Of a DNA stretch of 64,000 nucleotides, positions 14,400 to 64,000 are shown one piece after another. The notes under the pieces are model-generated. The model did no database searches. It worked only from the letters and a program-made list of their open reading frames with translations, and had not been told where the DNA came from. Position numbers and translations under genes: made by a program. Source of the stretch: Synechococcus sp. CC9311 (GTDB lineage Bacteria > Cyanobacteriota > Cyanobacteriia > PCC-6307 > Cyanobiaceae); the NCBI RefSeq assembly GCF_000014585.1, contig NC_008319.1:1364001-1428000 (forward strand), written 5' to 3'. The stretch's first letter is position 1, and each line of letters opens with the position of its first letter.

Positions 14400-15236
14400 T
14401 CAAGTGGGGTCCAAATTTGAACGTATACGGCTATTTAGTAACAACGCAAGCAAGAAACCTAGAAACTGAACCATCACCACTGAAGGTCCTGAAGGAAGAT
14501 TTGATAAACCTGAAAACAAAAGTCCTAGCAAGGCACACCCACCACCAATAGCAGATGAAATCATCACATAAACAGGAAAACTTCGGCTAAGTAGTTTACC
14601 AGCACAAGCAGGAATCACAACAAAGGCTGAAATAAGCAAAACACCTACTGCTTTAATTGATATCGCAACAACAACTGCTAAAAGAATGATAAATGCTAAA
14701 CCATGCCAACGGGTACGAACTCCCATCGCACCCGCCAAATCTTGATTGAGTGTGAGCAATACTTGAGCCCGCATACTGAGACCTAGATAGATCACACTTG
14801 CAATAAGGAAACCCGCAATAACAACAACATCAAGCCGACTAATCCCGAGGATGTCCCCAAACAACAGCTGTTGAATTCCTCCACGGTAGGTGTCTACACG
14901 GCTGAGCGCCAAGATTGCTATTGCCAATGAACTTGAATAAACAATGTTCAACAGGGCATCCGTGGGAAGAGCGCTGCGCTCGACCAGCTGACTGACAAGC
15001 AATGCGAACAAAACAGCAAAAGGAATCAACACAAGGGTGGGATTCACACCAAGCAAAATGCCTAAAGTGATTCCTAACAGTGATGAATGGCCTAAGGCAT
15101 CGCTGAAAAAGGACAGCTGCCGAAGAACGGCAAAGCTGCCGAGTACTCCGCCAAGGGCACCAGTCAACATGCCGCCGAGCAAGGCGCGTTGCATAAACGG
15201 CTCAGACAGGAGGCTTAAAAAATCGACTTCAGCCAT
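14400..15236 (-). CDS. znuB: zinc ABC transporter permease
   Basis: 278 residues, mostly hydrophobic, with eight or nine membrane helices and the ABC-3 family pattern (LGGMLTGALGGVLGSFAVLR near the N-terminus, DALGHSSLLGITLG, VRTRWHGL). This is the inner-membrane channel of a Zn/Mn-type importer. The start overlaps the end of the ATPase gene by 8 bases. It is the last gene of the znuACB order. Zinc rather than manganese is inferred from the His-rich binding protein and the operator upstream of porin A. Confidence 0.87.
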   Translation of the reverse strand: MAEVDFLSLLSEPFMQRALLGGMLTGALGGVLGSFAVLRQLSFFSDALGHSSLLGITLGILLGVNPTLVLIPFAVLFALLVSQLVERSALPTDALLNIVYSSSLAIAILALSRVDTYRGGIQQLLFGDILGISRLDVVVIAGFLIASVIYLGLSMRAQVLLTLNQDLAGAMGVRTRWHGLAFIILLAVVVAISIKAVGVLLISAFVVIPACAGKLLSRSFPVYVMISSAIGGGCALLGLLFSGLSNLPSGPSVVMVQFLGFLLALLLNSRIRSNLDPT

Positions 15237-16008
15237 AGATCTGTTGGCGCTGAGACGCCATATTCAGCCCATATAGCTCGCCCACACGCTCCTCACTGAG
15301 GGTTGCCTCAGGACTACCACTGCAGCGCAAACTTCGGTTTAAGCAAAGCACCTGATCGCTGCTTCGACGAACCATCTCAAGGTCGTGAGACACCTGCAAG
15401 ACAGTCCAGCCTTCCTGACGGCGTAATTCCAGTAGTTGTTGTTGAAACTGCTCATTGGAATGAACATCTAAACCTGCTTGCGCTTCATCAAGCACCAGCA
15501 ATCGTCGAGGACGAACCAGACAAAAAGCCAGCAGCACCCGTTTCAGCTGTCCACCAGAAAGCTCTGTCAACAGGCGATTGCGTAGATCACAGGTTTGAGT
15601 TCGCTCCAAAGCCGTAAACACGGCTTCCATTCTCTGTTTTCCTGAACTCCAGGGCAGGCGGGGCCCTGGCAAATCAAACCCGAAGCCCACAAACTCAGCA
15701 ACAGAGAGAGGCAATAAACCTTGAACCACAAGGTTTTGTGGAACATAAGCGATCTGGGCACGTACAGAACGCGGCAAAGAACCATGTGCATCAAGGGGCT
15801 GACCCAACAACTCAACACGACCAGACGCGTGAGGAAGCAGCCCTAACAAAGCGGAAACAAGCGTGCTCTTTCCTGCTCCATTAGGACCAACGAGGGCCGT
15901 GTCACTTTCAGCGGGGAGGGCAAATGAAACGCCCTCTACTGCCAAACGTCCGGAACGTTCGACGCTGAGATCATGAACCGTTAGGACTGCTTCTTTCACA
16001 CTCATCAC
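15229..16008 (-). CDS. znuC: zinc ABC transporter ATP-binding protein
   Basis: 259 residues with Walker A GPNGAGKST, signature LSGGQLKRVLLAF, Walker B LLVLDEAQAGLD and H-loop VSHD. This is the nucleotide-binding subunit energising metal import through the permease encoded next. Its ATG overlaps the stop of the binding-protein gene by one base and its end overlaps the permease start by 8 bases, so the three genes are translated from one message. Confidence 0.87.
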   Translation of the reverse strand: MMSVKEAVLTVHDLSVERSGRLAVEGVSFALPAESDTALVGPNGAGKSTLVSALLGLLPHASGRVELLGQPLDAHGSLPRSVRAQIAYVPQNLVVQGLLPLSVAEFVGFGFDLPGPRLPWSSGKQRMEAVFTALERTQTCDLRNRLLTELSGGQLKRVLLAFCLVRPRRLLVLDEAQAGLDVHSNEQFQQQLLELRRQEGWTVLQVSHDLEMVRRSSDQVLCLNRSLRCSGSPEATLSEERVGELYGLNMASQRQQIYG

Positions 16009-16991
16009 TAGACGCCGAAAGCCTTGATGAGAGAGGCCACGTTGTTCTTCATCACCTTAAAATACGTATCGGGTTGTTTCGACGCTTCTTCCGAACCAGT
16101 TTCCAGTGGGTCAAAGGTCACCACATTGACTCCAAGATCCTCTGCTACAGCGTTAAAAGAGCGAGCACCTTCCTGGGGTTCACTCAGCAGAGCCTTGAGC
16201 TGAGACCGCTCCACTTGATTGGACACTCGTTGGAGATCCGCTGGAGTGGGGTTCATCTCGGGAACGTCAACGACAAACTCAGCTTTGATGTCATAACGCT
16301 CTGCGAAATAGGGAGCAAAGTCATGGAAGGCGATGAAGGTCTGGCCACGAAAAGGCTTGAGCTGGGTGGCAAAGGTTGCATTCAACTCCTTCAGCTGATC
16401 GCTATATGCTGCCGCCCGTTGCATATAACCGTCAGCGCAATCTGGATCGGCCTTCACCAAACCATCACGGATGTTTTCGACCTGTTGGACAGCGCGTAGT
16501 GGATCTAACCAGATGTGTGGATTGACCTCACCATGATCACCACCATGATCACCACCATGATGGTGATGATGATGACCTCCCTCCTCCTCAGCCGACTGAA
16601 TCACAGCTACACCGCGACTGGTGTCAATCACCTGAAGCGTGTCGTTCTCAGCTGAGTCGGTCAATTTTTCAAGAAAATATTCGATACCCAAACCATTCTT
16701 AACCAAGACAGCAGCATTACTTAGAGCAGCGATATCAGATGGTGTGGCCTGAAAATCATGGGGGCCAAGATTAGGTGGAATCAGTGCCGTAACAGTGGCA
16801 CATTCACCCGCAACCGCTTCCGTAAAAAGAGTGATCGGCAAAAACGTTGTCACAACATTTAGTTTGGATTGATCACTGGCGCCATCTGATTTTTGTGGAG
16901 TGCCACAGGAAACGAGAGCCGCCATAAGCAGCAGAGCTCCTGGGATAGAAAAAAAGATTTTGGAACGAAAGGACGTAGGCAATAAAGACAT
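16008..16991 (-). CDS. znuA: zinc-binding periplasmic lipoprotein of the ABC importer
   Basis: 327 residues. Lipobox ALVSC gives a lipidated Cys29. Cluster A-I (ZnuA/MntA) features: His78 in GPHDF, a mobile loop with six consecutive histidines at 140-145 plus His149 and His153, His159 in NPHIWLDP, and FIAFHDFAPYFAERY. The His/Asp loop is characteristic of zinc-specific members. It binds Zn2+ in the periplasm and delivers it to ZnuB. The ATG lies only 37 bases after the stop of porin A, with no visible promoter or terminator between, so it probably shares the porin transcript and its Fur/Zur-type operator. Confidence 0.9.
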   Translation of the reverse strand: MSLLPTSFRSKIFFSIPGALLLMAALVSCGTPQKSDGASDQSKLNVVTTFLPITLFTEAVAGECATVTALIPPNLGPHDFQATPSDIAALSNAAVLVKNGLGIEYFLEKLTDSAENDTLQVIDTSRGVAVIQSAEEEGGHHHHHHGGDHGGDHGEVNPHIWLDPLRAVQQVENIRDGLVKADPDCADGYMQRAAAYSDQLKELNATFATQLKPFRGQTFIAFHDFAPYFAERYDIKAEFVVDVPEMNPTPADLQRVSNQVERSQLKALLSEPQEGARSFNAVAEDLGVNVVTFDPLETGSEEASKQPDTYFKVMKNNVASLIKAFGV

Positions 16992-18605
16992 AACAGAATA
17001 ACGAACAGAAATGTATGTAAAAAGTGTCTTAGAATTTGAAGGTTGTTTTTACCAATCCACCAAGCTGACTTAAAGTATCATCGCCACCATTTAGATCAGT
17101 ATTCTGACCTTCAGGACGACTTAAATAGAACAATGCGGGCGTAACGCTAATGTTGTCAGTGACCTGGAATTGATACCACCATTCCCATACATAGTTGCCA
17201 TCTGCAGGAACTTCATCGCCCTTCAAATCTGTAGCAAATACGGGTTGACCTACGGCCATGCCTGCATTGTTGCCCTTCAGGAAGACGTCACTCCATTCCA
17301 AGCCAAGATTCCATGATTGACTTGTTGTGACATCACCAACATTCTTAGCATATAAAGCATTGTATCCATATCCTGCAGAGATTGATGGAATCCAACCACT
17401 CTCTTGTGGCTGCCAAGAGCCGCCAATACCCCAAGCATTCATAAAGGCTTTTCGGCCAGAAAAGTAGTTGTCTGCAGCGAATGTAGTGCCGAATCCACCA
17501 ACTAATTCAGATGGACTTTGAACGCCTGACCAAATAGCGGCAATGTTCCAGTTTTCTGATTCATAAGCAAGTTGTACCGTGCCTGAAGCCTCAGAGAATT
17601 CAGTTCCTATACCACCAGCATTAGGGTCTGAACTCGAACCTTGAGCAGCAACATAATTTGCAGAGATACTGAAACCGCTATCAGTAGACCAACTAACACC
17701 GGCTCCTGGTCCCAGGTTTTTGTTGTAAGCAGCTGGAGCACCATTGAGGGTTGTGACATCCAAGATTGGATCACTTGGATAAGCACTAGGCCAAACAGCA
17801 AGCATGTCTTCCTGACCAACACGGGCTCCAAGCGTGAAAGTCAGCGAGTTAGCGACGGGGAATTGATAGTAAAGCTTGTCGATACCAACAGAGTTGGCAC
17901 CAGAATCTTCCTGAAATGCTGTTTCTAGGGTTGATAAGCCGTTTGGATTGCCACCGAATACAGAGTTCTCACCAAAATTGCCTGACCTTAAGATTGTAAT
18001 TAATAAATCTTTTCCAGTGAAACTAGTTTCAAGGCTTAATTGGAGGTCATAATTAAATGTAGTGGCACCAAAGTCTCTGTTCGCAGGATCGGCTTTCGAT
18101 TTGGTTCCAGAAAAATTATTCGCACCAACAACAAACGTTGCCAATCCAGAAAGCTTGGTGGTGGTGGAGAACTGAGTTGCTTCCAGTTCACCAACGCGGG
18201 CTTCAAGTCCGTCAACACGGCCCTTGAGGATGGCGAGTTCCTTTTCGAACTCCTTCATCAGGCGCTTCAGCTCGTCGGTCACTTCGGTGACGCGGTCGAG
18301 ACAGGCGTTCAACAGAGCAGCCGCTTCAAAGCGGGTCATTGCCCTGTTACCGCGGTAGGTGCCGTTGGGGTAACCGGCCACACAGCCGTAGCGCTCGATC
18401 AGGTTGCTAAGAGCCTGATAAGCCCAATCGGTTGGGTAAACGTCAGAAAACTGAGTGATGCTGGTGACTTGCTCGCCAGAGGCGGCGTAGTCAGACACAC
18501 CATTGATATTGAGCTCAGTGGCGTTTGCAGCCAAAGGTGCCAAAAGGCCCAATGCAGCTGGAGCCACCAACAGTTGTTGGAAAAGTTTCAAAACGGGCCT
18601 CACAC
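16981..18605. repeat. tandem duplication, copy A (porin + start of znuA)
   Basis: Copy A repeats copy B (18721-20345) at an offset of exactly 1740 bases. By eye the two are identical from 16981 to 18533 and differ at only a few positions up to about 18605. The left edge lies inside znuA (its first 11 bases are in the repeat) and the right edge is just upstream of the porin start. Confidence 0.93.
17029..18603 (-). CDS. SLH-domain outer-membrane porin, copy A
   Basis: 524 residues from GTG; TTG at 18591 would give the usual picocyanobacterial start KLFQQLLVAPAALG. A signal peptide ends at ANA-TE. An SLH domain (about 45-100, FSDVYPTDWAYQALSNLIER) binds the cell wall, a coiled coil follows (about 105-140, ELKRLMKEFEKELAILKGRV), and the remainder is an OprB-type beta-barrel ending in KTTFKF with a terminal Phe for outer-membrane insertion. 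The context (operator at 18618-18636, znuABC 37 bases downstream) suggests zinc passage, but substrate selectivity is not shown. The mature protein is identical to copy B. Confidence 0.9.
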   Translation of the reverse strand: MRPVLKLFQQLLVAPAALGLLAPLAANATELNINGVSDYAASGEQVTSITQFSDVYPTDWAYQALSNLIERYGCVAGYPNGTYRGNRAMTRFEAAALLNACLDRVTEVTDELKRLMKEFEKELAILKGRVDGLEARVGELEATQFSTTTKLSGLATFVVGANNFSGTKSKADPANRDFGATTFNYDLQLSLETSFTGKDLLITILRSGNFGENSVFGGNPNGLSTLETAFQEDSGANSVGIDKLYYQFPVANSLTFTLGARVGQEDMLAVWPSAYPSDPILDVTTLNGAPAAYNKNLGPGAGVSWSTDSGFSISANYVAAQGSSSDPNAGGIGTEFSEASGTVQLAYESENWNIAAIWSGVQSPSELVGGFGTTFAADNYFSGRKAFMNAWGIGGSWQPQESGWIPSISAGYGYNALYAKNVGDVTTSQSWNLGLEWSDVFLKGNNAGMAVGQPVFATDLKGDEVPADGNYVWEWWYQFQVTDNISVTPALFYLSRPEGQNTDLNGGDDTLSQLGGLVKTTFKF

Positions 18606-18610
18606 GGAAA

Positions 18611-18643
18611 GGCGCTTGAAAATGATAATCGTTCTCAAGCGCC
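18611..18643. promoter_or_regulatory. Fur/Zur-type operator nested in an inverted repeat, porin A promoter
   Basis: Bases 18618-18636 (GAAAATGATAATCGTTCTC) form a 19-mer matching itself at 7 of 9 paired positions, with the shared core AATGA-NN-ATCRTT. It is enclosed by the arms GGCGCTTGA (18611-18619) and TCAAGCGCC (18635-18643). A TATAGT hexamer lies just upstream on the minus strand (near 18648-18655), so a repressor bound here would cover the start region of the porin A transcript. Confidence 0.65.
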
Positions 18644-18731: not shown

Positions 18732-20345
18732 AACAGAATAACGAACAGAAATGTATGTAAAAAGTGTCTTAGAATTTGAAGGTTGTTTTTACCAATCCAC
18801 CAAGCTGACTTAAAGTATCATCGCCACCATTTAGATCAGTATTCTGACCTTCAGGACGACTTAAATAGAACAATGCGGGCGTAACGCTAATGTTGTCAGT
18901 GACCTGGAATTGATACCACCATTCCCATACATAGTTGCCATCTGCAGGAACTTCATCGCCCTTCAAATCTGTAGCAAATACGGGTTGACCTACGGCCATG
19001 CCTGCATTGTTGCCCTTCAGGAAGACGTCACTCCATTCCAAGCCAAGATTCCATGATTGACTTGTTGTGACATCACCAACATTCTTAGCATATAAAGCAT
19101 TGTATCCATATCCTGCAGAGATTGATGGAATCCAACCACTCTCTTGTGGCTGCCAAGAGCCGCCAATACCCCAAGCATTCATAAAGGCTTTTCGGCCAGA
19201 AAAGTAGTTGTCTGCAGCGAATGTAGTGCCGAATCCACCAACTAATTCAGATGGACTTTGAACGCCTGACCAAATAGCGGCAATGTTCCAGTTTTCTGAT
19301 TCATAAGCAAGTTGTACCGTGCCTGAAGCCTCAGAGAATTCAGTTCCTATACCACCAGCATTAGGGTCTGAACTCGAACCTTGAGCAGCAACATAATTTG
19401 CAGAGATACTGAAACCGCTATCAGTAGACCAACTAACACCGGCTCCTGGTCCCAGGTTTTTGTTGTAAGCAGCTGGAGCACCATTGAGGGTTGTGACATC
19501 CAAGATTGGATCACTTGGATAAGCACTAGGCCAAACAGCAAGCATGTCTTCCTGACCAACACGGGCTCCAAGCGTGAAAGTCAGCGAGTTAGCGACGGGG
19601 AATTGATAGTAAAGCTTGTCGATACCAACAGAGTTGGCACCAGAATCTTCCTGAAATGCTGTTTCTAGGGTTGATAAGCCGTTTGGATTGCCACCGAATA
19701 CAGAGTTCTCACCAAAATTGCCTGACCTTAAGATTGTAATTAATAAATCTTTTCCAGTGAAACTAGTTTCAAGGCTTAATTGGAGGTCATAATTAAATGT
19801 AGTGGCACCAAAGTCTCTGTTCGCAGGATCGGCTTTCGATTTGGTTCCAGAAAAATTATTCGCACCAACAACAAACGTTGCCAATCCAGAAAGCTTGGTG
19901 GTGGTGGAGAACTGAGTTGCTTCCAGTTCACCAACGCGGGCTTCAAGTCCGTCAACACGGCCCTTGAGGATGGCGAGTTCCTTTTCGAACTCCTTCATCA
20001 GGCGCTTCAGCTCGTCGGTCACTTCGGTGACGCGGTCGAGACAGGCGTTCAACAGAGCAGCCGCTTCAAAGCGGGTCATTGCCCTGTTACCGCGGTAGGT
20101 GCCGTTGGGGTAACCGGCCACACAGCCGTAGCGCTCGATCAGGTTGCTAAGAGCCTGATAAGCCCAATCGGTTGGGTAAACGTCAGAAAACTGAGTGATG
20201 CTGGTGACTTGCTCGCCAGAGGCGGCGTAGTCAGACACACCATTGATATTGAGCTCAGTGGCGTTTGCAGCCACAGGTGCCAAAAGGCCCAGGGCAGCTG
20301 GAGCCACCAGCAGTTGTTGGAAAAGTTTCAAAATGATCCTCACAC
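18721..20345. repeat. tandem duplication, copy B
   Basis: This is the second unit of the 1740-base-period tandem repeat described for 16981-18605. It is identical in the shared block except for a few bases near the porin start, and it carries an unrelated upstream promoter region. Confidence 0.93.
18769..20343 (-). CDS. SLH-domain outer-membrane porin, copy B
   Basis: 524 residues from GTG at 20343, or 520 from TTG. It encodes the same signal peptide, SLH, coiled-coil and OprB-type barrel as copy A; in the shared part the visible changes are in the leader (for example LAPVAANA instead of LAPLAANA, and RII instead of RPV at the start). Unlike copy A it has no Fur/Zur-type operator. Its leader contains the palindrome GACGCATTTTGCGTC and is identical for 56 bases to that of the third porin at 62.7 kb, so it is probably expressed under different conditions from copy A. 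Confidence 0.9.
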   Translation of the reverse strand: MRIILKLFQQLLVAPAALGLLAPVAANATELNINGVSDYAASGEQVTSITQFSDVYPTDWAYQALSNLIERYGCVAGYPNGTYRGNRAMTRFEAAALLNACLDRVTEVTDELKRLMKEFEKELAILKGRVDGLEARVGELEATQFSTTTKLSGLATFVVGANNFSGTKSKADPANRDFGATTFNYDLQLSLETSFTGKDLLITILRSGNFGENSVFGGNPNGLSTLETAFQEDSGANSVGIDKLYYQFPVANSLTFTLGARVGQEDMLAVWPSAYPSDPILDVTTLNGAPAAYNKNLGPGAGVSWSTDSGFSISANYVAAQGSSSDPNAGGIGTEFSEASGTVQLAYESENWNIAAIWSGVQSPSELVGGFGTTFAADNYFSGRKAFMNAWGIGGSWQPQESGWIPSISAGYGYNALYAKNVGDVTTSQSWNLGLEWSDVFLKGNNAGMAVGQPVFATDLKGDEVPADGNYVWEWWYQFQVTDNISVTPALFYLSRPEGQNTDLNGGDDTLSQLGGLVKTTFKF

Positions 20346-20350
20346 AAGAT

Positions 20351-20365
20351 GACGCAAAATGCGTC
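20351..20365. promoter_or_regulatory. palindrome in the leader of porin B
   Basis: GACGCA-TTT-TGCGTC (minus-strand reading) is a perfect 6-3-6 dyad ending 8 bases upstream of the GTG start. The same 15 bases occur at the same distance before porin C (62656-62670). It could be an operator or an RNA hairpin that masks the start. Confidence 0.5.
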
Positions 20366-20383
20366 ATGGAAATAATAACCAAT

Positions 20384-20726
20384 CAGATTGAATTACTAGA
20401 AACATTTACTACAAAAAACGAGTGGAAATGCATTTTTCGCATATTTTGGCAGAAATACAAGATTTGCAAAACATCCGTAGCGGCCACATCAATTTGTCAG
20501 CAAATTCTCAGCCATTTAAACAAAGCAGAAATTAAATTAAAAAAAAATTCAAATAAAAATATACCGCAAACTGAGCAATACAATTAATTCATAAAGAAAT
20601 CGGCGAGGCCGACAAATTAGTGATCATTGAAAACATCCAGGTGAATCAAAAGAAACAAAAACATGAATCTTAAATCATTATTTCGGCGCTAGGCAGACCA
20701 TATTGAAGATAATTGATTTTTATTTC
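20384..20726. other. AT-rich divergent promoter region
   Basis: About 340 bases between porin B (leftward) and the imelysin gene (rightward). It is strongly AT-rich with A-tracts (20535-20575). No gene and no clear copy of the Fur/Zur core were found, although ATCATTATTT at about 20676-20685 is a weak half-match. Confidence 0.4.
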
Positions 20727-21734
20727 ATGCACCAACGTTCAGGACTTCTTTCAGCACTAGTTGCAGCGGCCTTGTCAGCAACGGTCACTAGTGCCTGCAC
20801 TTCTCAATCGCAGGCTGGTCCAACAGATCAGGATGTCAGCTCAGCTTTAGTTAATGATGTGGTAATTCCTAGCTATAAAAAGTTAGTTAGTGGGACTAAA
20901 AAGCTTAATCAGGCTCTTCAAGTGCTAGTCAAAGATCCAAACCCTGCCAATCTTAAATTAGCTCGTGATGAGTGGAAAAAATCACGTAACACTTGGGAAG
21001 TAACGGAAACGTGGGCTTACGGCCCTGCTGAAACGGAAGATTTTGATCCTAAACTTGATGACTGGCCTGTGAGTGATAAGGAATTAGCAGAGGCACTATC
21101 GGAAAAAGATTTCACAAAAGAGAAATTTAATGCTCTAGATACAACAGGAAGAGGATTCCACGGCATTGAATATGTAATTTTTGGTAACGGCGATACTCCT
21201 GTTGAAGCATCTGATTTAACCACTCAGCAGCTAGCTTATTTAAGGATTGCGGGTGAAAATTTAAAATCCAATGCAAAACAGCTTCTGGCCGCATGGAGTG
21301 GACCAGAAGGCTTTGGTAAGGCTGATGTTGAAGCAGACCCTGCCAAAACAGTGAATGACATCCTTGAAGGAATGGCAGGATGCCTTGATGAGGTAAGTAA
21401 TACTAAATTGGGAGAAGCACTTGCTAGTGGAAAGGGGGAATTAGAAAGTACCTTTAGTGGCAACACCGGTGCTGATGTTTTGTCAAACTTACAAGGTGTT
21501 CAGCTGGCCTGGGAGAAGTCAAAAATTCAAGAATACGCCAAAACAAAGGATGCAGAGTTGTCCAATCAGTTGACCGTAGAATTGCAGACAGCGCTGGCAC
21601 AGGCTAAAGAACTACCAACACGTCTCAATGATAAACTTGATAATGGTGATACCCAAAAGCAAGTTAAAATGCTGATGGAAGCAATTTCGAAAGCATTTGA
21701 TACAACTGAGGCATTGAAGTCAAAGATTGGATGA
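20727..21734 (+). CDS. imelysin-family (IrpA-like) lipoprotein
   Basis: 335 residues from ATG 20727; an upstream TTG at 20703 is less likely. Lipobox SATVTSAC marks a lipoprotein. The imelysin (M75) signature GxHxxE appears in RGFHGIEYVIFG, and the N-terminal helix contains DEWKKSRNTWEVTETWAYGP. Imelysins are periplasmic four-helix proteins of iron uptake; cyanobacterial IrpA is iron-regulated. The di-heme cytochrome gene follows after 53 bases, the classic irpA-irpB arrangement, so a role in iron acquisition is likely though the mechanism is unsettled. Confidence 0.83.
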   Translation: MHQRSGLLSALVAAALSATVTSACTSQSQAGPTDQDVSSALVNDVVIPSYKKLVSGTKKLNQALQVLVKDPNPANLKLARDEWKKSRNTWEVTETWAYGPAETEDFDPKLDDWPVSDKELAEALSEKDFTKEKFNALDTTGRGFHGIEYVIFGNGDTPVEASDLTTQQLAYLRIAGENLKSNAKQLLAAWSGPEGFGKADVEADPAKTVNDILEGMAGCLDEVSNTKLGEALASGKGELESTFSGNTGADVLSNLQGVQLAWEKSKIQEYAKTKDAELSNQLTVELQTALAQAKELPTRLNDKLDNGDTQKQVKMLMEAISKAFDTTEALKSKIG

Positions 21735-21787
21735 TTTACTCAGAAAGCTTTAATATGATTAAGGGTGTTGTCTGAGAGGATGTAAAG

Positions 21788-23125
21788 ATGAGACATTCTC
21801 TTTCAAAAATTCTTGTCGGATTCCTAGCCCTGCTCTTGACAGTAGGGCTTGGGAATTTTTTTAACTTAGAAAGACCCGTGTGGGCAAGAATTGGAGATCC
21901 CCAAAAGGCTGCGGGGCAGATGACAATCTTTAATCGAGCTTTCACCGCATTTGCAACCCCTGCTGACGGTCTCAGTGAGGCGGAACTTGATCGACATGTG
22001 GAAACAGATCCACTTTTTGAGCAAAGCCATATTCCATTAGTGGGTCATGCTGGAGCTGGTTTAGGTCCTATTCACAACGCTAAATCATGTGCGTCCTGCC
22101 ATGTTTTGAATGGTCGAGGACGTCCCGTTACTGGTCAATCTCTGTTTCGCATAGCGATGCGAGAAGGAGAAGGCGACCAACCTGTACCTGGACTAGGGTT
22201 TCAATTGCAAGACAAGGCCATTTATGGCCACAGCCCGGAAGCAACTGTTGAAAGGGTATGGATTGAAGACAATGGTTTACGGAGGATGCAAGCCAAACTT
22301 ACAAAACCAGATGGATCTGACATCTCACCAATCACCGTTGCAAGTTCATTAAGGATCGCTCCACCAATGATTGGTCTGGGATTACTTGAGGCGATCCCTG
22401 AATCCAATCTCATTGCAAATGCAGATCCTGATGATGTCAATAAAGATGGAATTTCAGGACGTCCTGTTTGGGTTGATGATGAAAATGGAATACGTCGAAT
22501 CGGTCGTTTCGGATGGAAATCCACGTCTGCAAGCGTCATTGAACAAAGTGCAGATGCATATCAGCAGGATATGGGGCTTACAACAGCCACAGGTCCTAAC
22601 AGTGTGTTAGCTGCTGATGGCAAACCCGCAGACATCAGCTGGAACGAACTCGTTGGTGTGACCTATTACACACAGACGCTAGGATCTCCTGCGACGGCAA
22701 AAAAAGCATCTAGCAAAGTAGTAAGACGTGGTTCACTTGTGTTTGACCAATTGGAATGTGCTAAGTGTCATGTTCCAAGTCAACAAACTGGCTTTAATGC
22801 TGGGGCAGTTGCTGGTGTAATTAATAACCAAGAAATCTGGCCATACACAGATCTTTTAGTTCATGACATGGGTCCTGGACTGGATGATGGTGTCGCAGAA
22901 AAAGGACTTAGTTTGTCATCTGAATGGAGAACAGCACCACTGTGGGGACTTGGAATGACACAACCAGTCAATCGTGGAGCAGGTTTTCTACATGATGGTC
23001 GTGCAAGGACAATTGACGAAGCCATACGTTGGCATGGCGGTGAGGCACTACAAAGTAAAAATGCATATCTTGAATTATCGCAAAAACGTCGAAACGATTT
23101 ACTCAGCTGGCTAAATCAACTTTAA
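21788..23125 (+). CDS. di-heme c-type cytochrome (COG3488, IrpB-like)
   Basis: 445 residues with a signal peptide (about 1-31) and two heme c motifs: CASCHVLNGRGRP (about residue 101) and CAKCHVPSQQTG (about 323). The fold is that of di-heme cytochrome c peroxidase relatives annotated as thiol oxidoreductases. C-terminal features include LWGLGMTQPVNRGAGFLHDG and RWHGGEA. It likely acts in the periplasm in electron transfer to iron or its chelates together with the imelysin protein encoded just upstream. Confidence 0.85.
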   Translation: MRHSLSKILVGFLALLLTVGLGNFFNLERPVWARIGDPQKAAGQMTIFNRAFTAFATPADGLSEAELDRHVETDPLFEQSHIPLVGHAGAGLGPIHNAKSCASCHVLNGRGRPVTGQSLFRIAMREGEGDQPVPGLGFQLQDKAIYGHSPEATVERVWIEDNGLRRMQAKLTKPDGSDISPITVASSLRIAPPMIGLGLLEAIPESNLIANADPDDVNKDGISGRPVWVDDENGIRRIGRFGWKSTSASVIEQSADAYQQDMGLTTATGPNSVLAADGKPADISWNELVGVTYYTQTLGSPATAKKASSKVVRRGSLVFDQLECAKCHVPSQQTGFNAGAVAGVINNQEIWPYTDLLVHDMGPGLDDGVAEKGLSLSSEWRTAPLWGLGMTQPVNRGAGFLHDGRARTIDEAIRWHGGEALQSKNAYLELSQKRRNDLLSWLNQL

Positions 23126-25108: not shown

Positions 25109-25804
25109 CTACCCGTTTGGCTGAAGGGAAGAGTGATGGTGGGAAATTTTCCATTCTCCATCTTCAAGCATATAGATAAAACTATAGCGAGCCTCTGCCG
25201 TTGTTCCATCCTCAAAGTTAAAGCTATAGAGTCCTGCATCCTGAAGCATATTGCAACCGATAATAATCTCACGTTGATCAATGGAACCTTTGGGACTTTT
25301 CTCTAAAAAATGCTTGAAGTAGTCGACTATTGTGGCATGGTCTGTGCGTGGCAAGTCGGACAGTGTAGGGAGCAAGATTGCATCACGGCTATATAATTTT
25401 GCAACTTGTTCAGGATCTTTGGTTTGCAATGCTGCATTCCACCTCTCAAAAAGTTGTTGCACTTCATTTTGAGAGATAAGCGCACATCCGGTGACACCAT
25501 CTTTGAGCAATTCACCGCATTGACGATCTAGCAATTCAAGATTGAGCCAAATCAGGCTATTTCTCGGAATCAGCGAGCTGTAGGACAAGCAACTGGGACG
25601 GTCCCGCGGTCCGAGACGCCATCGATACTGCTGTCCTACGGAACTACCAAGAAGTTCTGATTCAATCCAATGAGGAAGATTGCCTTGCCCGACAGCCATT
25701 GAAAAAATCTGACGCCCCGTGGTGAGCCTCTCATTCAAATCGGTTGCCTGCATGGAAACCGTCAGTACCGTTTTGGAGCCAGAGGAGCCGGTGGAGTGCA
25801 TCAT
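25109..25804 (-). CDS. FKBP-like / NTF2-like (SgcJ/EcaC) fusion protein
   Basis: About 231 residues from ATG 25804, chosen because GAGGAGAG lies about 12 bases upstream and because the Fur/Zur-type operator at 25852-25870 would otherwise be inside the gene; an open frame does extend to 26002. The N-terminal half (about 10-105) resembles an FKBP/SlyD core: GRQIFSMAVGQGNLPHWIES followed by ELLGSSVGQQYRWRLGP. The C-terminal half (about 110-231) is an NTF2-like domain of the SgcJ/EcaC type (VQQLFERWNAALQTKDPEQV, DHATIVDYFKHFLEKSPKG, ISHHHSS). There is no signal peptide. SlyD-like folds include metallochaperones; with the operator this suggests a metal-linked folding or binding role, which is inference. 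Confidence 0.62.
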   Translation of the reverse strand: MMHSTGSSGSKTVLTVSMQATDLNERLTTGRQIFSMAVGQGNLPHWIESELLGSSVGQQYRWRLGPRDRPSCLSYSSLIPRNSLIWLNLELLDRQCGELLKDGVTGCALISQNEVQQLFERWNAALQTKDPEQVAKLYSRDAILLPTLSDLPRTDHATIVDYFKHFLEKSPKGSIDQREIIIGCNMLQDAGLYSFNFEDGTTAEARYSFIYMLEDGEWKISHHHSSLQPNG

Positions 25805-26383
25805 CAGCTGTTCGAGTCTCTCCTCGTGGTGGCTTTGCATTAAGATTACATGAGAATGATTATCGTTCTTTACCCATCCGCGGAGTTGGTAGAGATCAGA
25901 GCGTCTAGGTCGAATCCGTACCGGATCTAGCCAGGTCAACAAAATCAGTAACTCTGCACAAGCCTCATCCAGATCAGCGGCGAAAGAAGAACACCTAAAC
26001 AAGTTAGAGCTCTAGGGCTCATTACAGAAGTGTTCTTCAAAGTTAAAAGAGTAATTATTTAATCTAAACCTAACTAAAAATCACAAGAAAATGATTAAAG
26101 GCCCATCTGGCAAAATCAGTAATAATTGCCAATGATTCATTTTGAATCCATGTCAGAACGCATCCATCCCGCCGCCAAGGCGAAGAACGATCCAATGCCA
26201 AAAAAGCAAATGAAATTCACGATTGTGACAATAATTGTACTTTTTAAACCTTGCAAAACAATTATAAACGCCCTAAATCCTATCCATAAAAAATAATTAG
26301 TTAAGTGCGCATGCCTATGAGAAGCATCTGAAGCGAGAAGCCTGTAAAGAGAAACCAACAGAACGCCGGACGACCTGTCAAAA
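25805..26383. other. regulatory/intergenic region between two operator-controlled genes
   Basis: It contains the operator at 25852-25870 and an in-frame upstream extension of the fusion gene (to 26002) that probably is not translated. A 73-codon hydrophobic frame on the minus strand (26137-26358) has one or two possible membrane segments but no recognisable family and no ribosome-binding site. Confidence 0.4.
25852..25870. promoter_or_regulatory. Fur/Zur-type operator before the FKBP-NTF2 gene
   Basis: GAGAATGATTATCGTTCTT pairs with its own reverse complement at most positions of the 17-base core AGAATGATTATCGTTCT (7 of 8 pairs) and shares AATGA-NN-ATCRTT with the other three sites. It ends about 48 bases before the chosen start at 25804. 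Confidence 0.6.
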
Positions 26384-26402
26384 TGGAATGAGAATCATTC
26401 TC
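26384..26402. promoter_or_regulatory. Fur/Zur-type operator before the COG0523 GTPase
   Basis: TGGAATGAGAATCATTCTC contains the shared core AATGA-NN-ATCRTT and a perfect GAGAAT-C-ATTCTC dyad. It lies immediately before the ATG at 26406; an ATG at 26388 falls inside it. Binding here would block transcription or, if the site is transcribed, overlap the ribosome entry region. Confidence 0.6.
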
Positions 26403-26405
26403 GCA

Positions 26406-27467
26406 ATGACGAGCTCCACTGCTTCTCAAGTGCCTGTCACCATCCTCAGTGGATTCCTGGGTGCCGGAAAGACCACGTTGCTCAACCACATTCTCAGCAA
26501 TCAGGTAGGTGTAAAAACTGCGGTGCTGGTCAACGAATTTGGTGAAATTGGGATTGATCATGATCTGATCGTTTCGACCAACGAAGACATGGTGGAATTG
26601 AGCAATGGCTGCATCTGCTGCACGATTAACGATGAGCTCAAAGATGCTGTCGAGAGAATACTGAACAGACCAGAAAAAATGGACTACATCGTGGTCGAAA
26701 CCACCGGACTTGCGGATCCTCTCCCGGTCGCAATGACATTCGGGGCCACTGAATTACGTGACTCCACACGTCTCGATTCGATCATAACTTTAATCGACGC
26801 CGAGAATTTTAATGATGAAATACTGCACACGCAGATAGGCCGTGCACAGGTGATTTACGGCGATATCTTGTTGCTCAACAAAACTGATCTCGTCTCTAGG
26901 GAACGTCTTGAAGAAGTTGAACAGAAGCTGCGTCATATTAAGACTGATGCCCGAATCATGCACTCAATTCAAGGTGAAGTGCCCCTGGCTCTGCTACTGA
27001 GTGTGGGTTTATTTGAGTCTGACAAAATCGTCAATCAGAGCGATCACAGCCATCACGACCACAGCCATTACGACCACAGCCATCACGACCACAGCCATCA
27101 CGACCACGGCCATCACGACCACGGACATCACGACCACGGACATCACCATGGGAGCCATCAAGAGAATGAAGCAATCGAGGGGTTTACCTCCCTATCGTTT
27201 GAAAGCGATGGTCCTTTTTCATTACGCAAGTTTCAGAATTTTCTAGATAACCAGTTACCCAAGGAGATCTTTCGTTCGAAGGGAATTCTCTGGTTTCAGG
27301 AGAGTGAACGCCGTCATGTGTTCCACTTAACTGGTAAGCGCTTCTCTATCAATGACAGCGATTGGACTGGAGAACGCAAAAATCAGATTGTCATGATCGG
27401 ACGTGACATCAATCACGACTCCTTGCGTCAACAACTGAAGGATTGTGTTGCCAAAAAGCTGGATTAA
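26406..27467 (+). CDS. COG0523 (CobW-family) GTPase with His-rich loop, probable zinc chaperone
   Basis: 353 residues from ATG 26406; ATG 26388 would add six codons overlapping the operator. Walker A is GFLGAGKTT, the COG0523 metal motif NGCICCTI (CxCC) is at about 69-72, the switch is VVETTGLADP, and the guanine motif is NKTD. A loop of about 36 residues holds repeated HHDH units and ends HHHGSH, before a CobW C-terminal domain. COG0523 proteins hydrolyse GTP to deliver metal to client enzymes; members with CxCC, His-rich loops and a Zur-type site are usually zinc-starvation proteins (ZagA/ZigA/YeiR type). No cobalamin genes are nearby, which argues against a B12 role. Confidence 0.85.
   Translation: MTSSTASQVPVTILSGFLGAGKTTLLNHILSNQVGVKTAVLVNEFGEIGIDHDLIVSTNEDMVELSNGCICCTINDELKDAVERILNRPEKMDYIVVETTGLADPLPVAMTFGATELRDSTRLDSIITLIDAENFNDEILHTQIGRAQVIYGDILLLNKTDLVSRERLEEVEQKLRHIKTDARIMHSIQGEVPLALLLSVGLFESDKIVNQSDHSHHDHSHYDHSHHDHSHHDHGHHDHGHHDHGHHHGSHQENEAIEGFTSLSFESDGPFSLRKFQNFLDNQLPKEIFRSKGILWFQESERRHVFHLTGKRFSINDSDWTGERKNQIVMIGRDINHDSLRQQLKDCVAKKLD
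27043..27150 (+). repeat. 15-base tandem repeat encoding the His/Asp metal loop
   Basis: About seven imperfect copies of a 15-base unit of the type CATCACGACCACAGC, each adding a (S/G)HHDH pentapeptide to the GTPase. Copies differ by single bases (CATTACGAC, GGC/GGA for AGC), so copy number may vary between strains. It is a coding repeat, not a CRISPR array. Confidence 0.8.
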
Positions 27468-62677: not shown

Positions 62678-64000
62678 GTGAGGATCATTTTGAAACTTTT
62701 CCAACAACTGTTGGTGGCTCCAGCTGCATTGGGCCTTTTGGCACCTTTGGCTGCAAACGCCACTGAGCTCAATATCAATGGTGTGTCTGACTACGCCGCT
62801 TCTGGCGAGCAAGTCACCAGCATCACTCAGTTTTCTGACGTTTACCCAACCGACTGGGCTTATCAGGCTCTTAGCAACCTGATCGAGCGCTACGGCTGTG
62901 TTGCCGGTTACCCCAACGGCACCTACCGCGGTAACAGGGCCATGACCCGCTTTGAAGCGGCTGCTCTGTTGAACGCCTGTCTCGACCGCGTCACCGAAGT
63001 GACCGACGAGCTGAAGCGCCTGATGAAAGAGTTCGAAAAGGAACTCGCCATCCTCAAGGGCCGTGTTGACGGACTTGAAGCTCGCGTTGGCGAACTGGAA
63101 GCAACTCAGTTCTCCACCACTACTAAGTTGACCGGTAAAGCCGAGTTCACCATTGGTGCTCAAAGCTATGGCGGAGATGAAACCAACAATCTGCAGGATC
63201 CAGCAACTGGTGAATACCTAGGTGATACAGGTACGGTCTTCTCTTACCGCACCACTCTCAACCTCAACACCAGCTTCACGGGCAAGGATTTGCTCTATAC
63301 CCGTTTAAGAACGGGTAATTTTGGTGATAACGGTTTCTCCGGTAAGAGTGATAGCTACACCGGAAGCCAAACTCAAATCGAGGCTTCCAAATCCAGCGCA
63401 AACAGCCTGAAGGTTGACAAGCTCTGGTATCAATTCCCCCTCGGAAATGATTTCCAAGTCTTTGCTGGTCCTCTAATCGAGAACTACTACATGCTGGCCG
63501 CCACCCCTGGCGTTTACAAGCATGTACTGAAGCAGTTCAAGCTCGGTGGCTACTACGGTGCCTATGGCGCAAGTACATCACCTGGCGCAGGTATCAACTG
63601 GATCAGCAATAGAAATGCTGACTACAGCGATCCTAAGTTCAAAGTTAGCGTCAACTACGTCGCTAAGAATGGTGCCAAGAGTGACCCCAATGATGGTGGT
63701 ATCGCAGGTGATCGTTCCAAAGGTAAGTTCCTGAGCCAAATCGCCTATGGAACACCTTCATGGCAAGTTTCTGCGGCTTACGCCTATTCACAGGCTGGCA
63801 TGACTGTGGGTGGAGCAGGTACACCACTCGGTAAATCCACTAGCGGTTACGACGATGCCAACCAGTTCAACTTGAATGCTTATTACCAGCCCCTCGATAG
63901 CGGTTGGATTCCAAGCATCAGCGTTGGCTGGAGCCTCACCAGTTTCAATTTGGAAGATGGTGCTGCTGATGGTACACGTCAGCAGGCTCAAGGTTGGCTT
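62678..64000 (+). CDS. SLH-domain outer-membrane porin, copy C (3' end beyond the window)
   Basis: The frame is open from GTG 62678 (or TTG 62690) to the last base, so the gene is incomplete here. The signal peptide, SLH domain and coiled coil are nearly identical to porins A and B through about 63125 (GELEATQFSTTTKL). The barrel then diverges (AEFTIGAQSYGGDETNN, VDKLWYQFPLGNDFQVF, LDSGWIPSISVGWSL), so its channel properties should differ. Inverted relative to copies A and B, 42 kb away. Confidence 0.9.
   Translation, partial: MRIILKLFQQLLVAPAALGLLAPLAANATELNINGVSDYAASGEQVTSITQFSDVYPTDWAYQALSNLIERYGCVAGYPNGTYRGNRAMTRFEAAALLNACLDRVTEVTDELKRLMKEFEKELAILKGRVDGLEARVGELEATQFSTTTKLTGKAEFTIGAQSYGGDETNNLQDPATGEYLGDTGTVFSYRTTLNLNTSFTGKDLLYTRLRTGNFGDNGFSGKSDSYTGSQTQIEASKSSANSLKVDKLWYQFPLGNDFQVFAGPLIENYYMLAATPGVYKHVLKQFKLGGYYGAYGASTSPGAGINWISNRNADYSDPKFKVSVNYVAKNGAKSDPNDGGIAGDRSKGKFLSQIAYGTPSWQVSAAYAYSQAGMTVGGAGTPLGKSTSGYDDANQFNLNAYYQPLDSGWIPSISVGWSLTSFNLEDGAADGTRQQAQGWL

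Follow-up and report, generated by a model that had tools for sequence, protein, structure and literature searches.

What does a protein do that joins an FKBP-like half to an NTF2-like half, and why is its gene preceded by the same operator as the zinc genes of its genome? The question was raised by a gene on the minus strand of a 64,000-nucleotide stretch of Synechococcus sp. CC9311 (referred to as a whole as the window), which the original prediction had read as a possible zinc-responsive folding factor or metal-storage protein. According to the comparative sequence analysis, the meaning of the locus probably shifts from these functions to a carbonic anhydrase (CA) of zinc starvation. The features concerned are as follows (window coordinates):

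14400..18603, minus strand: OprB-type porin, znuA, znuC and znuB (zinc uptake); porin and ZnuA identified by Pfam, znuC and znuB by place, sequence and homologues in relatives
18623..18637, minus strand: Zur-type operator of the porin-znuACB operon; consensus match
25109..25804, minus strand: FKBP-like/iota-carbonic anhydrase fusion gene, 231 aa; likeliest start ATG 25804, from homologue comparison
25112..25489, minus strand: predicted iota-carbonic anhydrase domain spanning approximately residues 106-231; carries T147, Y162, F163, F166 and H222-H223-H224-S225-S226
25520..25768, minus strand: predicted FKBP-fold domain (residues 13-95), lacking the flap insert of SlyD and without conservation of the classic PPIase residues
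25845..25850, minus strand: -10-like hexamer TGTAAT directly behind the operator; same place in 12/12 genomes
25851..25865, minus strand: Zur-type operator of the fusion gene, TGAGAATGATTATCG (coding strand CGATAATCATTCTCA), 46 bases from the ATG
26388..27467, plus strand: COG0523/CobW-family GTPase with His-rich linker, divergent from the fusion gene
26389..26403, plus strand: Zur-type operator TGAGAATCATTCTCG of the COG0523 gene; coincides with the opening codons of the listed ORF, a later start being possible

Reading frame and domain composition

Both motifs that had drawn attention to the gene lie within one minus-strand ORF that ends at 25109, and the gene is present as a single copy in this genome. 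The coding extent first assigned to it (25109-25870) was correct with regard to its end and too long with regard to its start: the in-frame stretch upstream of ATG 25804 contains a stop codon in two relatives (TAA in L004, TAG in L005), and in the 95%-identical L003 the alternative ATG at 25840 is replaced by ACG. Starts at 25870 and 25840 were therefore rejected in favor of ATG 25804, and the segment 25805-25870 consequently represents promoter and operator. Within the 297-residue reading, residues 37-91 gave a weak hint of an acylphosphatase (E=0.039); part of this segment precedes the real start, and the hint vanished with the shorter reading.

The C-terminal half matched CaMKII_AD in Pfam (PF08332, E=7.9e-13) and the "SgcJ/EcaC family oxidoreductase" TIGR02246 in NCBIfam (E=9.2e-14), in agreement with its earlier description as an SgcJ/EcaC NTF2-like half ending in HHHSS. 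What that description missed, and what changes the meaning of the gene, is the identity suggested by this motif together with the catalytic residues. The sequence "(H)HHSS" closes each iota-CA domain, and some prokaryotic homologues are annotated as SgcJ/EcaC (PMC6776030). In the fusion protein the motif occupies residues 222-226, and it was present in all 29 domains of the alignment (9 fused and 20 non-fused; the truncated fusion L011 was left out). T147, Y162, F163, F166, H224 and S226 were likewise invariant (29/29), in a spacing identical to that of T62, Y77, F78, F81, H139 and S141, the catalytic residues of the diatom iota-CA (PMC8395977). The sole confident PDB sequence match of this half was 3H51 (phmmer E=4.4e-26; next E=0.19), which Hirakawa et al. 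describe as a structural neighbor common to COG4337 proteins and iota-CAs (PMC8132391). In a Foldseek search with the full-length AlphaFold model, 3H51 ranked first and the cyanobacterial iota-CA 7C5V third (E=2.6e-4), the model itself being weak (mean pLDDT 61), with low quality in the iota-CA half. From these features we infer that the C-terminal half is an iota-carbonic anhydrase domain, its enzyme class being predicted from residues and fold.

Hirakawa et al. (PMC8132391) list an iota-CA of COG4875 type for CC9311 and WH8020 and one of COG4337 type for CC9605 and WH7805, and the fusion gene is very probably the CC9311 enzyme that they counted; neither a fusion nor an operator of this gene is mentioned in the sections of that article at hand. 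As to COG4337 versus COG4875, the closest structure was 3H51, followed by 7C5V, and it is the cited article that puts CC9311 in COG4875.

Two further observations concern the iota-CA domains of picocyanobacteria. C107 and C184 were invariant in all 29 aligned domains, fused as well as non-fused (the latter probably exported), and a disulfide or a redox switch is possible. Two genomes of the family (G215 and G114) encode a different, divergent and probably exported protein ending in HHSS (L105 and L106, respectively), perhaps of COG4337 type.

The N-terminal half gave no match to the Pfam FKBP family (PF00254) in any of the nine members scanned at E values up to 10, and profile comparison and fold search were therefore used. 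A profile-profile comparison with 27 cyanobacterial FKBPs aligned 91 columns with a score of 32.4 (E=3.7e-5, probability 71%), whereas 100 column-shuffled versions scored at most 22.2 and the reversed profile 12.1; a match between the N-terminal and iota-CA alignments was rejected as an artefact of linker columns common to both. The AlphaFold model of this half, calculated from nine sequences, had a mean pLDDT of 78.7 (about 90 over the core). Its best Foldseek match was Thermus SlyD (E=1.3e-3; no match reached 1e-3). Of the 50 titles shown, 46 were FKBP, SlyD, SlpA, MIP or prolyl isomerase, the other four being chains of 104-114 residues within larger complexes. VIA superimposed the model on Thermus SlyD over 91 residues (Z 9.6, rmsd 2.6) and returned 48 FKBP-type titles out of 50, the remaining two being ryanodine-receptor chains of 107-108 residues. 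Based on the Foldseek and VIA matches, the fold of the modeled N-terminal half is that of an FKBP. The proposed pairing of an FKBP-like with an SgcJ/EcaC NTF2-like half in one ORF was thus borne out by the family matches, the profile comparison and the predicted structure, in which an FKBP core is present.

The function that had been attached to this fold fared less well. The classic active-site residues of FKBP12, which we take to be Y26, D37, W59, Y82 and F99, fall on M, a gap, I (with W adjacent), P and L when the profile alignment is read by eye, a reading that rests on 23% identity so that single positions may shift. The insert-in-flap of SlyD is absent from the FKBP half, which comprises about 85 residues without it; no Cys or His is conserved in the half among the nine fused rows aligned, and it carries no His/Cys-rich metal-binding tail. 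Without recognisable classic active-site residues, a flap insert or conserved Cys/His, the domain probably neither acts as a prolyl isomerase nor binds metal in the manner of SlyD, and the proposals of a folding factor and of a metallochaperone or metal store found no counterpart in it. The protein thus resembles SlyD and other FKBP prolyl isomerases in the fold of its N-terminal half and differs from them in lacking insert, tail and conserved canonical residues. Most likely, the FKBP-like half would serve as a binding, oligomerisation or localisation module.

Distribution, descent and cellular location of the fusion

The fusion protein had matches in 34 of 299 genomes of the order, of which ten included the FKBP half (one of these, G173, is broken after query residue 178). 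A scan of the contigs yielded nine named fusion loci in Synechococcus and Cyanobium-like genomes and MAGs; seven of them belong to the ten genomes and two (L056 and L062) do not, which brings the fusion to 12 genomes. A codon-pattern search for the fusion junction found it in 9 of the 299. The class-wide search with the FKBP-half profile returned 4 of 388 genomes, a sample from which most other fusion genomes are presumably absent; three matches were strong and all in the genus of the window, and the fourth (E=0.006, 34 positions), weak and partial, was taken as chance. Outside the fusion gene the FKBP half was found neither in the genome scans nor in this search of 388 genomes, and a scan of viral contigs revealed no relative.

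In the iota-CA tree the nine fused domains formed one clade (support 100/100) against 20 non-fused ones; two genomes, G131 and G282, possess a non-fused iota-CA besides the fusion. Both halves are under purifying selection: dN/dS amounted to 0.07-0.17 in the FKBP half (six pairs from four sequences of the genus of the window) and to 0.03-0.08 in the iota-CA half (three usable pairs, the other three having saturated dS).

Three loci deviate from the common architecture. In L061 the iota-CA half is truncated, with FKBP half and box remaining; in L062, box and FKBP half are retained and no iota-CA half is recognisable; and in L057, which stems from the same genome as L006, the fusion gene contains an in-frame stop. 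The iota-CA half may be dispensable in these cases, or they may reflect decay or assembly error.

Fused and non-fused proteins also differed in the sequence preceding the iota-CA domain. The strongest 15-residue hydropathy stretch reached 0.67-1.35 in all ten fused proteins versus 1.86-2.69 in all 20 non-fused ones, and the N-termini of three fused proteins showed a hydropathy of at most 1.5; judged by hydropathy, the export signal typical of prokaryotic iota-CAs was not recognised in the fusion. This split suggests that the non-fused enzymes are exported and that the fusion protein is cytoplasmic, a location that we regard as probable. Within one family, the fusion clade would accordingly set the iota-CAs that have the box and are probably cytoplasmic apart from those that lack it and are probably exported.

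Operator and zinc gene neighborhood

The box consensus YGANAAYSRTTNTCR occurs at five exact sites in the whole genome (2,606,748 bases), with about 1.3 expected from base composition. Each site is found at a 5' end, namely that of the porin-znuACB operon (18623), the fusion gene (25851), the COG0523 GTPase gene (26389), a second znuA (L035; PF01297, E=1.2e-43) and a ZIP transporter gene (L036; PF02535, E=1.2e-11); at the COG0523, second znuA and ZIP genes the box overlaps the mechanically listed ORF start. The earlier claim of an operator shared with zinc genes is therewith confirmed. With one mismatch allowed, 47 sites were obtained in all versus 52 for the reversed control pattern, i.e. background, and therefore the exact sites alone stand out; among the 42 one-mismatch sites, the neighborhoods of a few were examined. 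The ZIP-type transporter gene under its exact box is split into two open frames (L036 740-1486; G000 about 2139212).

Upstream of the fusion gene the exact box was found in all ten genomes and at all nine named loci, i.e. in 12 different genomes. Directly after it, each of the 12 has a -10-like hexamer with four or five of six matches to TATAAT, where at least four matches arise at 2.8% of all window positions by chance; these 12 rows are related and not independent, but the freshwater ones have diverged to 57-64% identity with the window protein. A clear -35 element was not found at the 12 boxed genes (two to four of six matches). In contrast, none of 26 non-fused iota-CA genes had the box: 20 were inspected within 500 bases upstream and six more (the genes of the four remaining matching genomes plus the additional copy in each of G131 and G282) within 800 bases, with distances counted from the match start and not from the gene start, and the best site in each set had three mismatches. 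A short second piece in G173 (L109), with just 107 bases of sequence before it, was left out of the 26. The comparison of box and gene across picocyanobacteria, suggested at the outset as a check, thus separates fused (12/12) from non-fused (0/26) genes.

The conserved promoter box shared with zinc genes points to Zur control of the fusion gene. In Synechococcus WH8102, the box of the Zur regulon (znuABC, bmtA) overlaps or touches the promoter -10 region, and a block by Zur was proposed for znuA and znuC (PMC9337993); the arrangement described here is alike in the box at the -10 region and in the znu genes. A carbonic anhydrase is not named as a Zur target of WH8102 in the sections of that article at hand.

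The zinc genes recur at the fusion loci of relatives. Among the nine named loci, several of them cut by contig ends, znu genes were present in seven, a COG0523 gene in six and a zur-like gene in two; the full order, seen in L058 and L062, is znuB-znuC-znuA-hisI-WD40 / fusion / WD40-COG0523 / zur. Of the three Fur-family proteins encoded in the genome of the window, L049 shares 55% identity with the zur-like protein of the freshwater cluster, versus about 31% for the other two.

Some minor features of these surroundings may be added. In freshwater relatives (L056-L059, L061, L062), hisI (phosphoribosyl-AMP cyclohydrolase, Pfam-checked in L062) and WD40-repeat genes are part of the zinc cluster. 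Upstream of znuACB in the window, two OprB/SLH porin genes stand in tandem (17029-18603 and 18769-20382; proteins 99.4% identical); another porin gene, near the window end (62678-63931), encodes a protein with 59% identity over 427 residues. Beside the zinc genes, an imelysin-domain protein and then a di-haem oxidoreductase are encoded at 20703-23125; these genes have no exact Zur-type box before them, the nearest being a two-mismatch site at 20328. Elsewhere in the genome, a gene recognised by eye as ferritin-like has a one-mismatch box (L044 1501-1515) some 150 bases upstream; the types of site used by Fur and Zur may overlap.

Proposed role and competing explanations

Taken together, the sequence comparisons make it reasonably probable that the gene encodes a Zur-repressed, zinc-sparing iota-CA with an FKBP-fold module that is induced in zinc starvation. 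With zinc plentiful, zinc-loaded Zur would bind the box inside the promoter and, because the box touches the -10-like hexamer, should block the polymerase; with zinc short, the fusion gene would be released from the block along with the genes for zinc import and for the COG0523 GTPase. Its product would then catalyse CO2 hydration in the cytoplasm while sparing zinc, and would replace or relieve the zinc-dependent carbonic anhydrases. Of the latter, the genome of the window encodes CsoSCA and a beta-CA, and a substitute makes sense since their classes use zinc; the fusion protein is probably a backup CO2-handling enzyme for zinc shortage.

The metal requirement of such an enzyme has to be judged from its relatives. 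Iota-CAs of COG4337 are active without metal (PMC8132391), and the diatom COG4875 enzyme reportedly works without a metal ion, zinc inhibiting both it and the B. natans enzyme (PMC8395977). For COG4875, metal use is disputed, Mn having been reported for a diatom enzyme and Zn proposed for that of Burkholderia (PMC8132391, PMC8395977, PMC7191908); as the CC9311 gene has been placed in this group, zinc independence is not a given, and the fusion enzyme is considered likely to be zinc-independent.

With the known iota-CAs (LCIP63 of Thalassiosira, BteCA-iota of Burkholderia, and the COG4337 proteins all2909 and Bn86287) the fusion protein has the CaMKII_AD/NTF2-like domain, the HHHSS motif and the T/Y/H/S/F residues in common, with the spacing of the diatom enzyme. 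It differs from them in its FKBP-fold domain, its Zur-type box and the lack of a recognisable export signal, prokaryotic iota-CAs being described as single-domain proteins with a predicted signal peptide (PMC8132391). Carbonic anhydrases under Zur have precedents in the predicted Zur-controlled gamma-class enzymes (Cam) of proteobacteria (PMC2770081) and in ytiB of Bacillus (PMC6103462), which are alike in that a CA gene is placed under Zur with other zinc-limitation genes; Cam differs in class and fold, and both occur in other phyla with no fusion mentioned. Iota-CA and Zur-linked CA substitution are therefore known; in the titles and abstract beginnings of the matches listed, the literature search revealed neither the two combined in a Zur-controlled iota-CA nor an iota-CA/FKBP fusion. 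A conserved zinc-sensor-type box before an iota-CA gene would link the physiological role of cyanobacterial iota-CAs with CO2 fixation in scarce zinc, in marine as well as freshwater picocyanobacteria.

A more specific version of the proposal assigns a task to the FKBP-like half. If free in the cytosol, a carbonic anhydrase should short-circuit the carboxysome-based CO2-concentrating mechanism, and for this reason localisation by the FKBP-like half is an attractive idea. A metal-free carbonic anhydrase switched on in zinc starvation might be addressed by the inactive FKBP fold to the carboxysome or to a CO2-uptake complex, where it would replace CsoSCA or a Cup/Chp protein; in this detailed form the idea is speculative and rather unlikely to hold in full. 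If true, a metal-free enzyme would take the place of a zinc enzyme within the carbon-concentrating mechanism, under the control of a zinc sensor.

Among the competing explanations, that of a zinc protein comes closest to the same data. The product could be an iota-CA that contains zinc, or else a client protein that binds zinc and depends on the neighboring COG0523 GTPase; it would compete for zinc in starvation and be loaded by the GTPase. The divergent COG0523 gene under its own box, the three histidines near the C-terminus and the Burkholderia iota-CA, called zinc-specific (PMC8395977) though its own paper leaves the ion open (PMC7191908), are in line with this explanation. The catalytic set, however, fits the metal-free mechanism proposed for COG4337 enzymes, the zinc inhibition reported for the diatom and B. 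natans enzymes (PMC8395977) argues the other way, and a common regulon alone also accounts for the neighborhood, so that a zinc client appears unlikely.

Membership in the zinc-starvation response would not require catalysis if the NTF2-like half were a non-enzymatic ligand-binding or dimerisation hub. CaMKII hub domains and other NTF2-like folds were among the fold matches, and the fusion is without known activity; yet the catalytic residues are invariant in all nine fused domains aligned and purifying selection is strong, which leaves such a hub distinctly improbable.

The operator itself might instead be a binding site of the iron regulator Fur, with the gene belonging to an iron response. 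Fur and Zur boxes resemble each other, and Fur control or cross-talk is conceivable because the box is of the general Fur-family type and the ferritin-like gene has a one-mismatch version of it; all five exact genome sites, however, lie at zinc genes and the one-mismatch sites are at background level (47 versus 52 reversed), and an iron response is accordingly very unlikely. Compared with these readings, the zinc-sparing iota-CA under Zur is preferred. Least probable of all is the SlyD-type zinc-responsive folding factor or metallochaperone, to which the FKBP/SlyD fold, the zinc-type operator and the retention of FKBP half and box in L062 would lend themselves, and against which stand the canonical active-site positions not kept in the profile alignment, the missing flap insert, the non-conserved Cys/His and an FKBP half that the genome scans and the search of 388 genomes found only in the fusion gene.
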